DNA from: Polyangiaceae bacterium | Lineage (GTDB): Bacteria; Myxococcota_A; Polyangia; Polyangiales; Polyangiaceae | Assembly: GCA_023150915.1 (NCBI GenBank) | Contig: JAKLKA010000047.1 | Location: 1 to 44,800 of the forward strand | Length of the DNA: 44,800 nt | Reading direction: 5' to 3' | Part shown: piece by piece, positions 4,343-12,401 of the stretch | Position numbering within the stretch: the first letter of the stretch is position 1 | Layout: every line of letters begins with the position of its first letter | The notes under the pieces: generated by a model | What the model was told of the DNA's origin: nothing | Databases searched by the model: none | The model's input: the letters and a program-made list of their open reading frames with translations, nothing else | Program-made: the position numbers and the translations under genes

Positions 4343-4367
4343 GCGAGTCCATTATCTTGCTTCGTTC

Positions 4368-5969
<1,602 letters not shown>

Positions 5970-5986: not shown

Positions 5987-8290
5987 TCAGGCGTCGCGGT
6001 TCTTCTCGTCCAGGCGCCGCAGGCCTTCGAGGATGACCATCTCTGGGCTGGCCTGGATGGTGGTGGTGGTGGGCTGGAACGCCGGGTCGAGCGAGAAGCT
6101 GCCCTCGGCGAAGGTGAGCATTTCGTACACCGCCTCTTCGCCCGCCATCTCGTCGAGCAGAGCGTGCACCATTCGACCCTCTTGGAAGTGCAGCTGGCCC
6201 TCGCGGCCGGCGGACTTCACGCTGACTTTTCCGCTCTTTCGCCCGTGGAAGAGGATCTGCATCAGGTCCGGCAGCGCGAGATCTCTGAGCGAGCCCGCCA
6301 CGCCCGTGGCCACGCTTTCCGAGCTGTTCTTGCGCGGGGCCGCTTGCAGCCGACGCAGCTTGCCGGCCAAGACGTCGCCGGTCGTGGGCTTGACCACGTA
6401 GTCTTGGGCGCCCAACGAAAACGCGCGATCGACCGCCGCGGCGTCCGAGTTTTTGGCCACGAACAAGAACGGCACCGACGCCGTGGCTTCCGCCCGCCGC
6501 AGCCGCTGGAGCAAGTCGAAGCCGTCGAAGGGTTGCAGCTCGACCTCTGCGAGCACGTATCGCACCTTGCCCCCTTCGGCGACCTTGAGCGCCTGGTCGG
6601 CGGCACGCGTCACCTTCACGTCGAAGCCCTGCGCCACCAGCCGAAGCTCGAGAATCGTGGCCTCTTCGGCGTCGGGCTCGACGATCAGCACCAGCGGCTT
6701 GTCGTCGCTCAGCTGACGTCGCAGGTCTTCGCCCACGACCAGCTGCGCCAAGAGCTCGACCAGGTCGGGGTCGAACAGCGTCCCGGCGTGCTCGGCCAAG
6801 ACCTTGTGAGCTTCTTCGTGGGACAGCTCTTTGCGGTAGAGATTGCGCGGGTTGAGCGTGAGGTCCGAATAGGTGTCGCAGAGCGCGAGCACGCGCGCGC
6901 CCAGCGGGATCTGCTTGCCGGAGACCCGACCCGGAAACCCGGTTCCATCGAAGCGCTCGTACATCGTGCTGACGGCGGTGGTGGTCTCTTTGGGCAGGCC
7001 CACGCTCTCGATCAGGCGCTGCGGTGTGTACACCAGCTTCAGCGCCGCGCGCCGGTGGGTGTCGTACTGCGCCACGTTGAGCAGCGTGAGGTGATACGAC
7101 ACCGGTTTGCCGAGGTCGTGCAGGTTGGCGGCGATGGTCGCGTGCAGCTGCTCGATGTCGCCCAGCCCCATCCGCTCGGTCATCATCTTGCTGAGCCGCG
7201 CCACAGACGCCGAGTGGCCCCGGAACTCGTCGCGGGTGTTCTCGTTGAGCGTGACCAGCACGTTGAGCAGCTCGGCCAGGTCGTTCAGGCGTTTGTCGCT
7301 GGGTTCGGCGTGAGCCGCCGGAAACAGCGACGATCGGAAGCGGGCAGCCGACGACGAGGGCGAGCTCGGCGCCGGCGCTTCGCGCGGCGCGTGTGCGTCG
7401 GGGAGCACGCTGCCCGGCTCGGGCACGCTGAAGCCTGGGCCGGGCAGGCCGCTGGGGGCGCGTGGTGCCTGGAATGGATTGGGCGGCGGCGTGAGGTTCT
7501 TCGGAGCGCCGAAGGGCTGCGCCCCCGGCCGCAGCGCTTGGGGCCGCATGGGCTCTGGAGCGAGCGGCGGGCTCAGCTCGAGCATGGGCGGCGGTGGCGG
7601 GACGTCGAGACCCCCGCGGGGTGGCAGCGGTGTCGCAAAGTGATCCGGCCGAGGGTGCGCCGCTGCCGCCGGGACGGGCGTCACGAAGTACTCGGCCCGT
7701 GGGGCCGGGGCAGGCGGCGCCGCCGGGGGGTCGAGCCGCGTCGCGGGGCCGGGCCGCGTGTCGGTGGCGCGCGGGCGCGGCTCTTCGAAGGCGTTGCCCA
7801 GCATGAAGGCGTCCGACACCAGCATGGCGAACGGGTTCGTCTCGCCGCGGTACCACTTGGCAATCGCGGCCTTCACCGCCGCCGGGCGCGCGATGTACGC
7901 CTTGACCTCTCGCACGCGGATCGCGATCGAGAGCTGCTTCTTGTACTCGGGGTCACCGGCGTCGGGTGAGACGACGCTGAGCGTGTCGGCGTCGGCCTCG
8001 TAGCGGACCGGAAACAGCAACAGCTTTTCGGCCACGCGCTCGGGCACCAGACGCAGCGCCTGGTCCGTCACCTGCAGGCGCGAGAGCTTGGCGGTCGATA
8101 CGAACTGCGTGCGCATGCGCTCGGCGGCGAAGCGCAAGAGGCGATCCTCGTCGATGGCGCCGATGCGCAGCAGCGACTCTTCCATGCGCTCGTTGTAGAG
8201 CTGCATGGCCTGGACCGTGGCAGAGAGCTGCGCGGCCGTGATCAGCCCCTCGGCGCGCAGGCGTTCTCCGACCCAAGTGGGGGACCACAT
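5987..8290 (-). CDS. T2SSE_N - HD-GYP-like - receiver - PATAN (DUF4388) fusion regulator
   Basis: 767 residues with four blocks. Residues 5-148 resemble the N-terminal domain of GspE/PilB-type ATPases (MshEN/T2SSE_N, c-di-GMP-binding in some members). Residues 170-330 are Pro/Ala-rich linker. Residues 335-525 look like an HD-GYP c-di-GMP phosphodiesterase, with His359 and HDLGK (391-395), but the HHExxxGxGYP motif reads MYERFDGTGFP, so two metal-binding His are replaced. Residues 531-645 are a receiver in which Glu582 occupies the phosphorylated Asp position; VKP Lys634 is kept. Residues 665-760 are a PATAN/DUF4388 domain. It is probably a c-di-GMP-related scaffold or sensor with weak or no catalysis. 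ATG 8290 begins directly at the first domain. Confidence 0.8.
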   Translation of the reverse strand: MWSPTWVGERLRAEGLITAAQLSATVQAMQLYNERMEESLLRIGAIDEDRLLRFAAERMRTQFVSTAKLSRLQVTDQALRLVPERVAEKLLLFPVRYEADADTLSVVSPDAGDPEYKKQLSIAIRVREVKAYIARPAAVKAAIAKWYRGETNPFAMLVSDAFMLGNAFEEPRPRATDTRPGPATRLDPPAAPPAPAPRAEYFVTPVPAAAAHPRPDHFATPLPPRGGLDVPPPPPMLELSPPLAPEPMRPQALRPGAQPFGAPKNLTPPPNPFQAPRAPSGLPGPGFSVPEPGSVLPDAHAPREAPAPSSPSSSAARFRSSLFPAAHAEPSDKRLNDLAELLNVLVTLNENTRDEFRGHSASVARLSKMMTERMGLGDIEQLHATIAANLHDLGKPVSYHLTLLNVAQYDTHRRAALKLVYTPQRLIESVGLPKETTTAVSTMYERFDGTGFPGRVSGKQIPLGARVLALCDTYSDLTLNPRNLYRKELSHEEAHKVLAEHAGTLFDPDLVELLAQLVVGEDLRRQLSDDKPLVLIVEPDAEEATILELRLVAQGFDVKVTRAADQALKVAEGGKVRYVLAEVELQPFDGFDLLQRLRRAEATASVPFLFVAKNSDAAAVDRAFSLGAQDYVVKPTTGDVLAGKLRRLQAAPRKNSSESVATGVAGSLRDLALPDLMQILFHGRKSGKVSVKSAGREGQLHFQEGRMVHALLDEMAGEEAVYEMLTFAEGSFSLDPAFQPTTTTIQASPEMVILEGLRRLDEKNRDA

Positions 8291-8527: not shown

Positions 8528-8842
8528 ATGAGGATTTCGACCGACGAGCTGGAACGTCCGACCGAGTGGCTCAGGCGCCTGGCCGAAAATCGCGCGCTCT
8601 ACCGGCAGCTGCTCGACAGCGCCGGGGGCTTGGCCATCGCCGCCTATCGCCTGGCGCGCGCGCGCTGTCGCATCCAGCCGGTGCCGAACGCCATTCCCAC
8701 GGCGGCCGAGCTGCGGGTGGCTGCCGACGAGATCGCGCGCTACGTGGGGATGCGCTTCACGCTGAGCGCACGGCAGCTGGTCGCGGACTGCGAGCACGCG
8801 GGCCTGGCGGTGATCGTGCCGATCAACGCGACCGCCGCCTGA
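8528..8842 (+). CDS. Hypothetical small helical protein
   Basis: 104 residues, predicted mostly helical, rich in Arg, Ala and Leu, with no signal peptide or membrane span. ATG 8528 follows a good ribosome-binding site (GAAGGAG, eight bases upstream). Residues 1-55 are amphipathic (RPTEWLRRLAENRALYRQLL), and the C-terminal part ends in a hydrophobic strand LAVIVPINATAA. I do not recognise a family. It stands alone: 237 bp upstream lies the start of the divergent HD-GYP fusion, with no clear gene between, and its stop abuts the convergent lipoprotein gene. Coding character and the strong RBS support a real gene. Confidence 0.65.
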   Translation: MRISTDELERPTEWLRRLAENRALYRQLLDSAGGLAIAAYRLARARCRIQPVPNAIPTAAELRVAADEIARYVGMRFTLSARQLVADCEHAGLAVIVPINATAA

Positions 8843-11052: not shown

Positions 11053-12401
11053 CAGAGTCGTCCGCCGAGCGGATCTGCGTTCGGCCGGTTCGGGCGAGGC
11101 TTTTGGGCCGACGCGGTCGCCGCCGGCTTGACCCCGGCGTCCCCGGGCGTGGGCAGTGGGGTGGGGGCCGGGGCAGCAGCGGGCGGTGCTGCCGGCCGCG
11201 CCGACGCGGCCTCGTTGGCGGGGCTCGCCTCGATCTCGGGCTGCGGCGGCGCTTCGCGGAACCAGGCCAGCGCGATCATGGTGATGCTGATGGCCGAGAA
11301 CACCGCCACGCCCACCCCCAAACCCACCGCGATGCCTCGCCGGGTGCTCATCCGGCGTTGATGGGTCGTGCCCCAGGCATTCGCGGTATTGCGCAGCGAT
11401 GGGTAGGGCCCGGAGACCCCGGCGCTGCCAGTGGTGCCTGCCAGGTGTTTGGCCACCGCAATGGCGAAGATCCGATCGAGGTGCTGCCGCGACGACGCGG
11501 CGGTGAAGGGCGCCAGCTCTTGCACCAGCTCGTGCACGCTCTGAGGGCGGTCGGCGGGCTTCTTCGCCAGACAGCGCAGGATCACGCGTTCGATCTCGGC
11601 GGGCAGATCGGGACGCAGGTGCGACGGCGGCAGCGGCTCGTCGCTGACGATCATCGCCGACAGCGCAGGCAGCGATTCCGCGATGAACGGCGCCTTCCCC
11701 GTCATGATCTCGTACAGCACCACGCCCAGCGACCAGATGTCGGTGCGGTGGTCCACGTTTCGAGCGCTGCGGACCTGCTCGGGCGACATGTGCGTCGGTG
11801 TGCCGAACACCTCGCTCGTTCCGGTCAGGCTGGGGGTGTGGTCTTGCTCGAACCAGTCGGCCTTCGAGATGCCGAAGTCGAGCACCTTGACCAGCCCGCG
11901 CTGCCCGGGGTTCTCGAGAACCATGATGTTCTCGGGCTTGAGGTCCCGGTGCACGATACCGGCGGCGTGGCAGTGCGCGACCGCGACGGCGGCCTGCAGC
12001 AGATAGTCGAGCCCCTCTTGCAGCGGCAGCGCTCCGCGGTGTTCGACCAGGCGCGAGAGCGGAGCCCCCACGACGAACTCCATCACCATGAAGGGCGTCT
12101 GATCGTCGAGCCGGCCGACCTCGAACACCTTGACCACGTGATCGCTGTCGATGGCGCTGGCGGCACGTGCCTCGCGCAGGAAGCGCTCGACGCCCAGCAC
12201 GCTCTTGGCTGCGCGCGGCGGCAAGAGCTTGATGGCGACGCGTCGGCCGAGATCGGTCTGGATCGCGCTGACCACCGCGGCCATGCCGCCCGAGCCGAGC
12301 AGCCCCTCGATCTGGTAGCGGCCCGCGAGCACCGTTCCCGGTTCGGGCACCCAGCTTTCGGACGAGTCCGAAGGCGGCACGCTGTCGCCGAGCCTGGGCA
12401 T
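11052..12401 (-). CDS. Hanks-type Ser/Thr protein kinase, single-pass membrane
   Basis: 449 residues. The kinase domain covers about 29-290: GSGGMAAVV loop (36-44), Lys58 in VAIKLL, HRDLKPENIMV, DFGISKAD, GTPTHMSPEQ in the activation segment and DIWSLGVVLYEIMTGKAPF. All catalytic residues are present, so it should be active. A hydrophobic span near 355-380 (GIAVGLGVGVAVFSAI...) follows a 70-residue spacer. The remaining tail is Ala/Pro-rich with no visible sensor fold, so it is probably in the periplasm. ATG 12401 has AGGTAAG upstream. It is the first gene of an operon with the TPR protein and lipoprotein, both overlapping, which suggests those are its membrane-side partners. Confidence 0.92.
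   Translation of the reverse strand: MPRLGDSVPPSDSSESWVPEPGTVLAGRYQIEGLLGSGGMAAVVSAIQTDLGRRVAIKLLPPRAAKSVLGVERFLREARAASAIDSDHVVKVFEVGRLDDQTPFMVMEFVVGAPLSRLVEHRGALPLQEGLDYLLQAAVAVAHCHAAGIVHRDLKPENIMVLENPGQRGLVKVLDFGISKADWFEQDHTPSLTGTSEVFGTPTHMSPEQVRSARNVDHRTDIWSLGVVLYEIMTGKAPFIAESLPALSAMIVSDEPLPPSHLRPDLPAEIERVILRCLAKKPADRPQSVHELVQELAPFTAASSRQHLDRIFAIAVAKHLAGTTGSAGVSGPYPSLRNTANAWGTTHQRRMSTRRGIAVGLGVGVAVFSAISITMIALAWFREAPPQPEIEASPANEAASARPAAPPAAAPAPTPLPTPGDAGVKPAATASAQKPRPNRPNADPLGGRL

Follow-up and report, generated by a model that had tools for sequence, protein, structure and literature searches.

A myxobacterial MshEN/HD-GYP/receiver/PATAN protein with replaced active sites is a candidate non-enzymatic adaptor

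The 44,800-nucleotide stretch of Polyangiaceae DNA analysed here (the window) encodes a 767-amino-acid protein in which the active sites of an HD-GYP domain and of a receiver are both replaced. Both c-di-GMP hydrolysis and control by phosphorylation are very probably lost, because the HH pair, the GYP tyrosine and the phospho-accepting Asp are absent and more residues are exchanged. Since the two sites are replaced almost identically across the relatives examined, the protein probably persists as a sensor or scaffold and is not a decaying enzyme. With a probability of about 0.5, it is a conserved myxobacterial pseudo-phosphodiesterase and pseudo-receiver acting as a non-enzymatic adaptor, with a ligand-binding pocket and a receiver locked by Glu. 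What the sequences show of this model is that the catalytic His pair and the phospho-Asp are missing across the family and that purifying selection acts; we infer the ligand binding, the locked conformation and the output.

Gene and domain organisation

The open reading frame is a genuine coding sequence by its codon positions (GC3 0.88, GC2 0.47) and by a dN/dS of 0.081 against the relative L009. The coordinates, strand and domain order given in a preliminary description were correct according to the ORF and Pfam evidence (Table 1). All four Pfam matches are above the cut-off, i.e., MshEN (residues 67-151, E 1.5e-7, 31.7 bits vs. a cut-off of 23.1), HD_5 (347-510, 8.8e-23), Response_reg (534-643, 1.9e-13) and DUF4388 (665-763, 4.5e-23, 82 bits vs. 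a cut-off of 25), the last of which we take to be PATAN. The N-terminus MW[ST]PTW is common to the 767-aa protein and the relatives L009, L018 and L015.

Table 1. Features of the gene, with positions in the window.
Feature	Position	Strand	Basis
Whole gene, MshEN / HD-GYP / REC / DUF4388 (PATAN), 767 aa	5987..8290	-	ORF, Pfam
MshEN (T2SSE_N) domain, residues 1-155	7826..8290	-	Pfam, PilF/PilB structure matches, motif score
Pro-rich linker, residues 156-330	7301..7825	-	dN/dS, low pLDDT
HD-GYP fold, residues 331-525, predicted not to hydrolyse c-di-GMP	6716..7300	-	Pfam HD_5, fold matches
Receiver domain (pseudo-receiver), residues 531-650	6341..6700	-	Pfam, PleD alignment
DUF4388 / PATAN domain, residues 663-767	5990..6304	-	Pfam E 4.5e-23
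H391-D392, retained HD dyad	7115..7120	-	codon check, family alignment
R353 at PmGH catalytic D183 site	7232..7234	-	family alignment
M443-Y444 replacing His-His metal ligands	6959..6964	-	codon check, family alignment
G451-F452-P453 replacing GYP	6932..6940	-	codon check, family alignment
E582 at phospho-Asp position	6545..6547	-	PleD alignment, codon check, family alignment
E37 codon, replacing second-motif MshEN glycine	8180..8182	-	motif scoring, codon check

Active sites across the family

The widest family set comprised 70 non-redundant members including the 767-aa protein, a first set comprised 37, and residues were aligned in detail for 65. In the widest set, HH is found in none of the 70 members and MY in 58, the GYP tyrosine is absent from all 70 (GFP in the 767-aa protein), and of the 69 members with a residue at position 582, 68 have Glu and none has Asp. 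MY and E582 both occur in 37/37 members of the first set. The preliminary description had named these three replacements, which were verified by codon check, and the conservation of MY and Glu is not a matter of chance. A relative of the same architecture with intact HH and Asp, which it had named as counter-evidence, was not found in the phylum, class and family samples (57, 121, 59, and 41 genomes); as these samples are partial, the absence of an intact ancestor is no proof.

In PmGH, Ala at either His essentially abolishes activity and Ala in the GYP motif lowers it little (PMC4159591), and the GYP replacement alone is therefore a weak sign of inactivity. With HH missing throughout, the family has very probably lost c-di-GMP hydrolysis, as had been proposed from the single sequence. 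Further replacements were identified beyond those named before. The equivalent of PmGH D183 is R353 (R in 55/65, Asp in 0/65) and that of D308 is S475 (S/A family-wide, Asp in 1/65). The third His, H250 in PmGH, is probably replaced too; its counterpart is K418 by phmmer alignment to L134, the genome's own canonical HD-GYP protein, L419 by equal HD-to-HH spacing (52 in both), and H412 by alignment to 4r8z. The 767-aa protein retains the HD dyad, the GK lysine K395 (61/65 members) and the H-HD-D quartet H359, H391-D392 and D472 (complete in 54/65). Residues H359, H391, E445, G449, G451, P453 and R466 are invariant in all 65 members, and H400 (64), N405 (57), H412 (56), R353 (55) and K/R418 (60) are typical of the family, so that the pocket appears remodelled and not randomly altered.

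H-HD-D is the ligand set of mononuclear HD centres, and its retention together with K395 is a hint of a remaining metal and possibly of residual chemistry. The domain might therefore be a repurposed HD enzyme, with a single metal bound by the quartet and a different phosphorylated substrate turned over in the remodelled pocket. Mononuclear HD centres have been linked to phosphomonoesterase activity (PMC4159591), and alarmone and other HD hydrolases appear on the fold list with lower Z; this reading is nevertheless unlikely, since the D183 and D308 required in PmGH are R and S/A and the quartet is incomplete in 11/65 members, which is hardly tolerable for an essential metal enzyme. More tenable, though tentative, is a rebuilt pocket that would hold a metal and sense a ligand other than c-di-GMP, signalling through the Glu-fixed receiver to the PATAN output with no c-di-GMP breakage, canonical binding or Asp phosphorylation. 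In this reading the catalytic Asp has become Arg, the His-His pair Met-Tyr and a third His Lys/Arg, while H400, N405 and H412 are new and H-HD-D is kept.

The receiver of the 767-aa protein carries E538-P539, A612 and K634, i.e., the second acidic residue and the Thr/Ser are missing. The family pattern is mostly D-P, T/S and K, and Glu occurs with Thr/Ser and Lys in 55/65 members. Aspartyl phosphorylation is very probably lost, in agreement with the silencing that had been claimed. In the accessible text of a 2025 review on pseudo-receivers (PMC12632262), aspartate-less receivers are said to carry Glu most often at the D position, and the hypothesis that Asp-to-Glu gives the active form is discussed and its testing called easy. 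The same text states that Glu as the source of activity was disproved in some pseudo-receivers. For the family, a Glu-based constitutive on-state, as suggested in the preliminary description, is plausible, but the 767-aa protein itself has A612 and P539, and the disproved cases also speak against it. The pseudo-receivers with Glu in this review resemble the present one in the Asp-to-Glu exchange, the kept Lys and, for most family members, the kept Thr/Ser; unlike the 767-aa protein, none is described there with an HD-GYP domain. Outside the family, the rows from the phylum search are REC-DUF4388 matches, and this related family has Asp at the phospho-site in 9 of the 10 rows aligned there; Glu therefore looks derived in the family of the 767-aa protein.

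A receiver combined with PATAN is also found in the Synechocystis regulators PixG, PilG, TaxP2 and PixE, whose output goes to the pilus motor PilB (PMC10519157, PMC9090330). They differ in having PATAN at the N-terminus (stated for PixG, PilG and TaxP2), and neither HD-GYP nor MshEN is named for them. For DUF4388 with Myxococcus, the literature searched, to which subscription journals mostly do not belong, gave no match.

Candidate sites for c-di-GMP and related folds

The preliminary description regarded the N-terminal domain as the site of c-di-GMP reading. An MshEN domain that binds c-di-GMP is expected to carry the RLGxx...L..L..Q motif twice, the third position being Gly each time. The 767-aa protein has W6-V7-G8 and R35-M36-E37, so the glycine is present in motif I only, and 12/22 key positions agree. 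In MshE, the exchange G11I abrogated c-di-GMP binding (PMC5013675), and for these three reasons reading via MshEN is unsupported as argued. The GSPII-A domain of PilF, with one degenerate motif, is the only one of three without attributed c-di-GMP binding (PMC11731258). Both glycines occur in only 2/62 members, the deep relatives L055 and L056, whose motifs are near-perfect (17 and 18 of 22). Despite these two and the Pfam match above cut-off, a c-di-GMP reader through MshEN is improbable. The family profile matches PilF and PilB structures and chains over the MshEN domain. That the MshEN motif was the last loss is not claimed, as L055 and L056 are not basal in a midpoint-rooted tree of 62 of the 65 rows.

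Degenerate EAL and GGDEF domains that read c-di-GMP are well known (LapD, SgmT). A degenerate HD-GYP receptor, DvhD of Desulfovibrio vulgaris (9rbz, 9rc0), was reported in 2026; with HH changed to MN and HD to SQ, it binds c-di-GMP metal-free and does not hydrolyse it (PMC13090378). It shares with the 767-aa protein the HD-GYP fold, the change of the His pair to Met-x and the non-catalytic state, which is predicted for the latter. In contrast, DvhD has lost the HD dyad as well, keeps the GYP tyrosine (Y621, by the mapping used here), and is a membrane protein that contains dCache and PAS domains and no MshEN, REC or DUF4388. At the c-di-GMP contact positions of DvhD, the family has an aromatic residue at 409 (54/65) and 485 (56/65), R/K482 (51/65) and R486 (56/65). 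R482, Y485 and R486 are kept in the 767-aa protein and the equivalents of DvhD K582, Y621 and E668 are not, in an ungapped and unsure loop mapping. By this precedent, c-di-GMP reading via the HD-GYP pocket is possible, and if c-di-GMP is read at all, the pocket would be a better candidate than MshEN.

In the preferred adaptor model, the remodelled pocket would bind, without hydrolysing it, a ligand that by the example of DvhD is most likely a cyclic dinucleotide. The receiver, not phosphorylatable on Asp, would be fixed by Glu in one conformation and would link the HD domain with the output through DUF4388/PATAN, and the N-terminal MshEN fold, with its canonical c-di-GMP site gone, might serve as a dimerisation or docking module. 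Points that speak against this model are the DvhD contacts that are missing, the retained H-HD-D and K395, the receiver Thr replaced by A612, the tighter constraint on DUF4388 and MshEN in the comparison with L018, the gene neighbourhood and the deletion of MXAN_2807 (see below).

A pure protein scaffold without any small ligand, in which the HD-GYP and receiver folds are protein-binding surfaces, is possible but doubtful. Bd1817 of Bdellovibrio (3tm8) is a catalytically inactive HD-GYP protein, likewise without the GYP tyrosine, that differs in its di-iron centre and closed lid (PMC4159591). RpfG binds GGDEF proteins regardless of its own activity (PMC4877007), the GGDEF domain of TmoK neither makes nor binds c-di-GMP, and in the present family the MshEN motif, too, is degenerate. 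However, the invariance of H359, H391, E445, G451, P453 and R466 in the PmGH active-site motifs exceeds what a surface role needs.

The full-length structure model (8-row alignment; mean pLDDT 51, pTM 0.27, linker pLDDT about 28) was left aside for domain packing, and an HD-only model (pLDDT 69) was used for the fold alone. Its Z-scores in VIA-align 2 were 14.7 for DvhD (9rbz), 13.8 for PmGH (4mcw) and 13.4 for PA4781 (4r8z), DvhD being top but tied within 1 with PmGH. With Foldseek and sequence search, PA4781, whose structure is named as a c-di-GMP phosphodiesterase, ranked above DvhD; the fold resemblance therefore favours no receptor over an enzyme. PmGH and PA4781 share the fold and the equivalents of H189, H221-D222, D305 and K225, and their HH, D183, D308, GYP tyrosine and probably H250 are replaced in the 767-aa protein. 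MXAN_2807 of M. xanthus, compared by description only, likewise combines HD-GYP and MshEN (PMC8844925) at a similar length of 661 codons, and the accessible sections of PMC4877007 do not list its deletion with those that impair development.

Selection, meaning and gene neighbourhood

Against L009, the dN/dS is 0.026 for the HD domain and 0.019 for the receiver, which indicates strong purifying selection, and 0.225 for the fast-evolving linker (156-330). Against L018, DUF4388 and MshEN are under tighter constraint than HD and REC. Of the 41 genomes sampled from the same taxonomic family, 32 gave matches. Several motifs are lost together, as would be expected of a decaying or mis-called gene, but the values of 0.02-0.03 for HD and REC and the occurrence in these genomes contradict this explanation, which we consider extremely improbable.

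The replacements are fixed at identical positions in a sizeable, conserved family, which suggests that an inactivated HD-GYP domain can be maintained by selection for a long time. The family also offers natural material to examine the idea that Asp-to-Glu locks a receiver in an active form, and annotation of such proteins as c-di-GMP phosphodiesterases or response regulators is probably wrong. No description of this family was found by title or opening of the abstract in the literature searched, with subscription journals mostly outside its scope.

For the gene neighbourhood, 27 contexts were clustered, made up of 20 regions (9.4-16.5 kb), six loci (9-10 kb) and the window's first 16.5 kb. From recurring clusters, one or two representatives were then scanned with Pfam. 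After this clustering, a conserved operon partner was rejected as a guide to function, and none of the scanned representatives was a pilus or c-di-GMP gene. Protein kinases lie near the gene in 7 contexts, which is weak evidence because this class is abundant. Ribosomal proteins L13 and S9, a semialdehyde dehydrogenase and UvrB represent clusters found in 5-6 contexts each; an MlaE permease recurs in 6, a transketolase in 4, and RNA polymerase beta and beta' and ketopantoate hydroxymethyltransferase in 3.

Gene structure and replaced residues

A GC3 of 0.88 and a whole-gene dN/dS of 0.081 against the close relative L009 identify the gene under study as a genuine coding gene. The four domains of the protein were found by Pfam above the curated cut-offs, and a Pro-rich linker, about 175 residues long, comes after the MshEN domain. 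The N-terminal 150 positions of the family profile matched PilF and PilB chains, and therefore the front domain has the T2SSE_N/MshEN fold.

Coordinates of the gene, its domains, related genes and neighboring ORFs
Feature	Location	Strand	Remark
Gene under study	window 5987-8290	minus	ORF, 767 aa
MshEN	residues 67-151		Pfam
HD_5	residues 347-510		Pfam
Response_reg	residues 534-643		Pfam
DUF4388 (PATAN)	residues 665-763		Pfam
Paralogue	L002:841-2769 (own genome, contig C286)	plus	643 aa; same MY and Glu changes
Separate REC-DUF4388 family	C214:9821-10540 (own genome); L004, L123-L133	minus (C214)	phylum search rows
Relative L055	L055:1435-3408	plus	HD-GYP site VY
Relative L056	L056:1393-3408	plus	HD-GYP site LF
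Protein downstream of paralogue	L075:8202-9059	plus	286 aa; no Pfam match
Divergent ORF	window 8528-8842	plus	104 aa; no Pfam match
Protein kinase-domain ORF	window 4365-5969	plus	Pkinase, E 1.4e-23
Protein kinase-domain ORF	window 11055-12401	minus	Pkinase, E 7.6e-47

The preliminary description regarded both the HD-GYP part and the receiver as apparently silenced, and the replacements named there were all verified in the codons: M443-Y444 at the His-His site, G451-F452-P453 where GYP is expected, and E582 at the phospho-Asp site. The HD dyad and GK are intact (H391-D392-L-G-K395). In an alignment with PleD, E582 falls on the phospho-Asp and E538-P539 on the acidic pair; judged from these residues, the receiver is not phosphorylatable on Asp. 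An HD-GYP protein of the own genome (L134) has HD, H, HH and GYP all intact and another match (L135) reads HHE...GYP, so that ordinary HD-GYP proteins coexist with the protein under study.

Conservation of the replacements

The relatives used are labeled Myxococcales, Polyangiaceae, Myxococcaceae or delta-/Deltaproteobacteria. Matches were obtained in 32 of 41 genomes of the own family (E <= 1e-40), and in 22 of 59 genomes of the class sample and 11 of 57 of the phylum sample (both E <= 1e-50). When the phylum was sampled more widely with a broader profile, matches came from 56 of 121 genomes (E <= 1e-40); judged from the match rows, 19 of these have matches reaching the HD part, and in the remaining 37 the match is to a distinct REC-DUF4388 family that is itself widespread.

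Among 70 non-redundant members, including the protein under study, the His-His site is MY in 58, LY in four and QY, RY, RH, IH, VY, LF, QH and VW in one each, but never HH. Position 452 is occupied by F (45), L (10), I (7), V (5), M (2) or T (1), with the Tyr of GYP in none of the 70. Position 582 is Glu in 68; of the other two rows, the long-branched L054 has Asn and L057 lacks the residue, and Asp was found in no member. In 17 members picked for diversity E582 is invariant, D392 is not. MY is thus conserved in most members and Glu582 in nearly all, and orthologues with intact HH and Asp, which would have spoken against silencing, are absent from the members examined. At the sequence level, a conserved pseudo-HD-GYP and pseudo-receiver is confirmed, rather than a one-off. 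The L057 match (genome G011) does not continue past the HD part, an in-frame TAG is reported within the matched stretch, and the gene looks like a broken copy.

Glu582 is probably a derived state, since phospho-Asp is present in nine of ten aligned rows of the separate REC-DUF4388 family (Glu in L129; L130 and L132 did not align at this site). Only three of these ten rows carry Asp at the second acidic position.

The paralogue is 47% identical to the protein across HD-REC-DUF4388 and represents the gene copy that is common within the same family. In the tree, the copy under study groups with L009, L018 and L015 in a single, long-branched clade (support 100/100), separate from the clade of the paralogue. 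For REC, HD, DUF4388, MshEN and linker, dN/dS was 0.019, 0.026, 0.033, 0.045 and 0.225 against L009, 0.171, 0.190, 0.261, 0.267 and 0.855 against L015 (about 0.85-1.1 synonymous changes per site), and 0.105, 0.138, 0.061, 0.075 and 0.317 against the more distant L018, where DUF4388 and MshEN are consequently more constrained than HD and REC. In all three comparisons the silenced HD and REC domains are clearly under constraint and not decaying.

Candidate ligand sites

In PmGH, the metal ligands are E185, H189, H221, D222, H250, H276, H277 and D305, and D183, K225 and D308 are also needed; exchange of H276 or H277 for Ala essentially abolished activity, and Ala in GYP caused no large loss (PMC4159591). 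Counted over 65 members, the retained equivalents are acidic 355 (E185, 51), H359 (H189, 65), H391 (H221, 65), D392 (D222, 60), D472 (D305, 58) and K395 (K225, 61). Replaced are H276-H277 (M443-Y444), D183 (R353; R in 55, Asp in 0) and D308 (S/A475; Asp in 1), and H250 corresponds to K/R418 (60/65) in one alignment and to H412 in another. Of the 65 members, 54 have the whole H-HD-D quartet, which serves mononuclear HD enzymes as their ligand set; a one-metal enzyme is a less likely possibility. Family-typical polar residues are near-invariant (H400 64/65, N405 57/65, H412 56/65), and the pocket may also have been remodelled for another ligand.

It is possible that a cyclic dinucleotide is read in the HD pocket, given the likeness to DvhD and the partial retention of its contacts. 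DvhD carries Met-Asn for His-His and SQ for HD, has no metal and does not hydrolyze c-di-GMP, yet binds it (PMC13090378); its His-pair change is similar, whereas HD is kept in the protein under study. By VIA-align 2, DvhD (9rbz) is the solved structure closest in fold to the HD model (Z 14.7, rmsd 3.8, 174 aligned), tied within 1 with PmGH (4mcw, Z 13.8), and PA4781 (4r8z) was ranked first for the HD part by Foldseek and phmmer. The positions of DvhD L577 and Y652 are aromatic (409, Y/W/F 54/65; 485, Y/F 56/65), those of R650 and R653 are R/K482 (51/65) and R486 (56/65), and contacts K582, Y621 and E668 are not retained.

The c-di-GMP reader role was originally proposed via T2SSE_N/MshEN; it is plausible via the HD-GYP part, as in DvhD, but unlikely via MshEN. 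The MshEN motif consists of two RLGxx(L/V/I)2xxG(L/V/I)2xxxxLxxxLxxQ copies five residues apart, and G11I abrogated binding (PMC5013675); Leu or Lys can stand in for Arg, and in PilF binding is attributed to GSPII-B and GSPII-C alone, with a degenerate second motif and no binding attributed for GSPII-A (PMC11731258). The motifs of the protein are W6-V7-G8 and R35-M36-E37, the latter with Glu for glycine. Because only 12 of 22 key positions were scored in a crude scan and both glycines occur in 2 of 62 members (L055 and L056), the domain appears ill suited as the c-di-GMP site. L055 and L056 combine these glycines with degenerate HD-GYP sites. Two other MshEN domains of the own genome (L095, L098) scored 17 and 18, the paralogue 12, and five further domains 11-14; for some of the latter two groups the best place may be in the wrong frame, and these scores carry little weight.

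MshEN-HD-GYP combinations were already noted in 2016 (PMC5013675), and the M. xanthus protein MXAN_2807 is described as carrying HD-GYP and MshEN (PMC8844925), a likeness drawn from the domain description. A MXAN_2807 deletion strain (661 codons) is included in a study in which 20 of 24 gene mutations were without effect on development, and the available text does not name MXAN2807 among the exceptions (PMC4877007). A published description of family-wide double silencing was not found in the literature searched by title and abstract start.

Receiver output and gene neighborhood

Glu with Lys and Thr/Ser in receivers has been proposed to mimic phosphorylation (PMC12632262). This combination is present in 55 of 65 members, which makes the suggested phospho-mimic role of Glu582 plausible for the family, but the protein itself has A612 for Thr. 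Synechocystis PATAN-receiver proteins bind the pilus motor PilB (PMC10519157, PMC9090330); that DUF4388 does so here is only a guess, and no support for a PilB link was seen among the scanned representatives of recurrent neighbors in the 27 gene contexts compared.

Of the 27 contexts, 5 have a homologue of the 286-aa protein just downstream of the paralogue next to the relative. Two protein kinase-domain ORFs flank the gene, with no evidence tying them to it. The ORF divergent from the gene falls into a cluster that is shared with L009 and L015. In L077 and L079, relatives adjoin genes for ribosomal proteins L13-S9 or for RNA polymerase beta-beta', which is an unusual location for a signaling gene.
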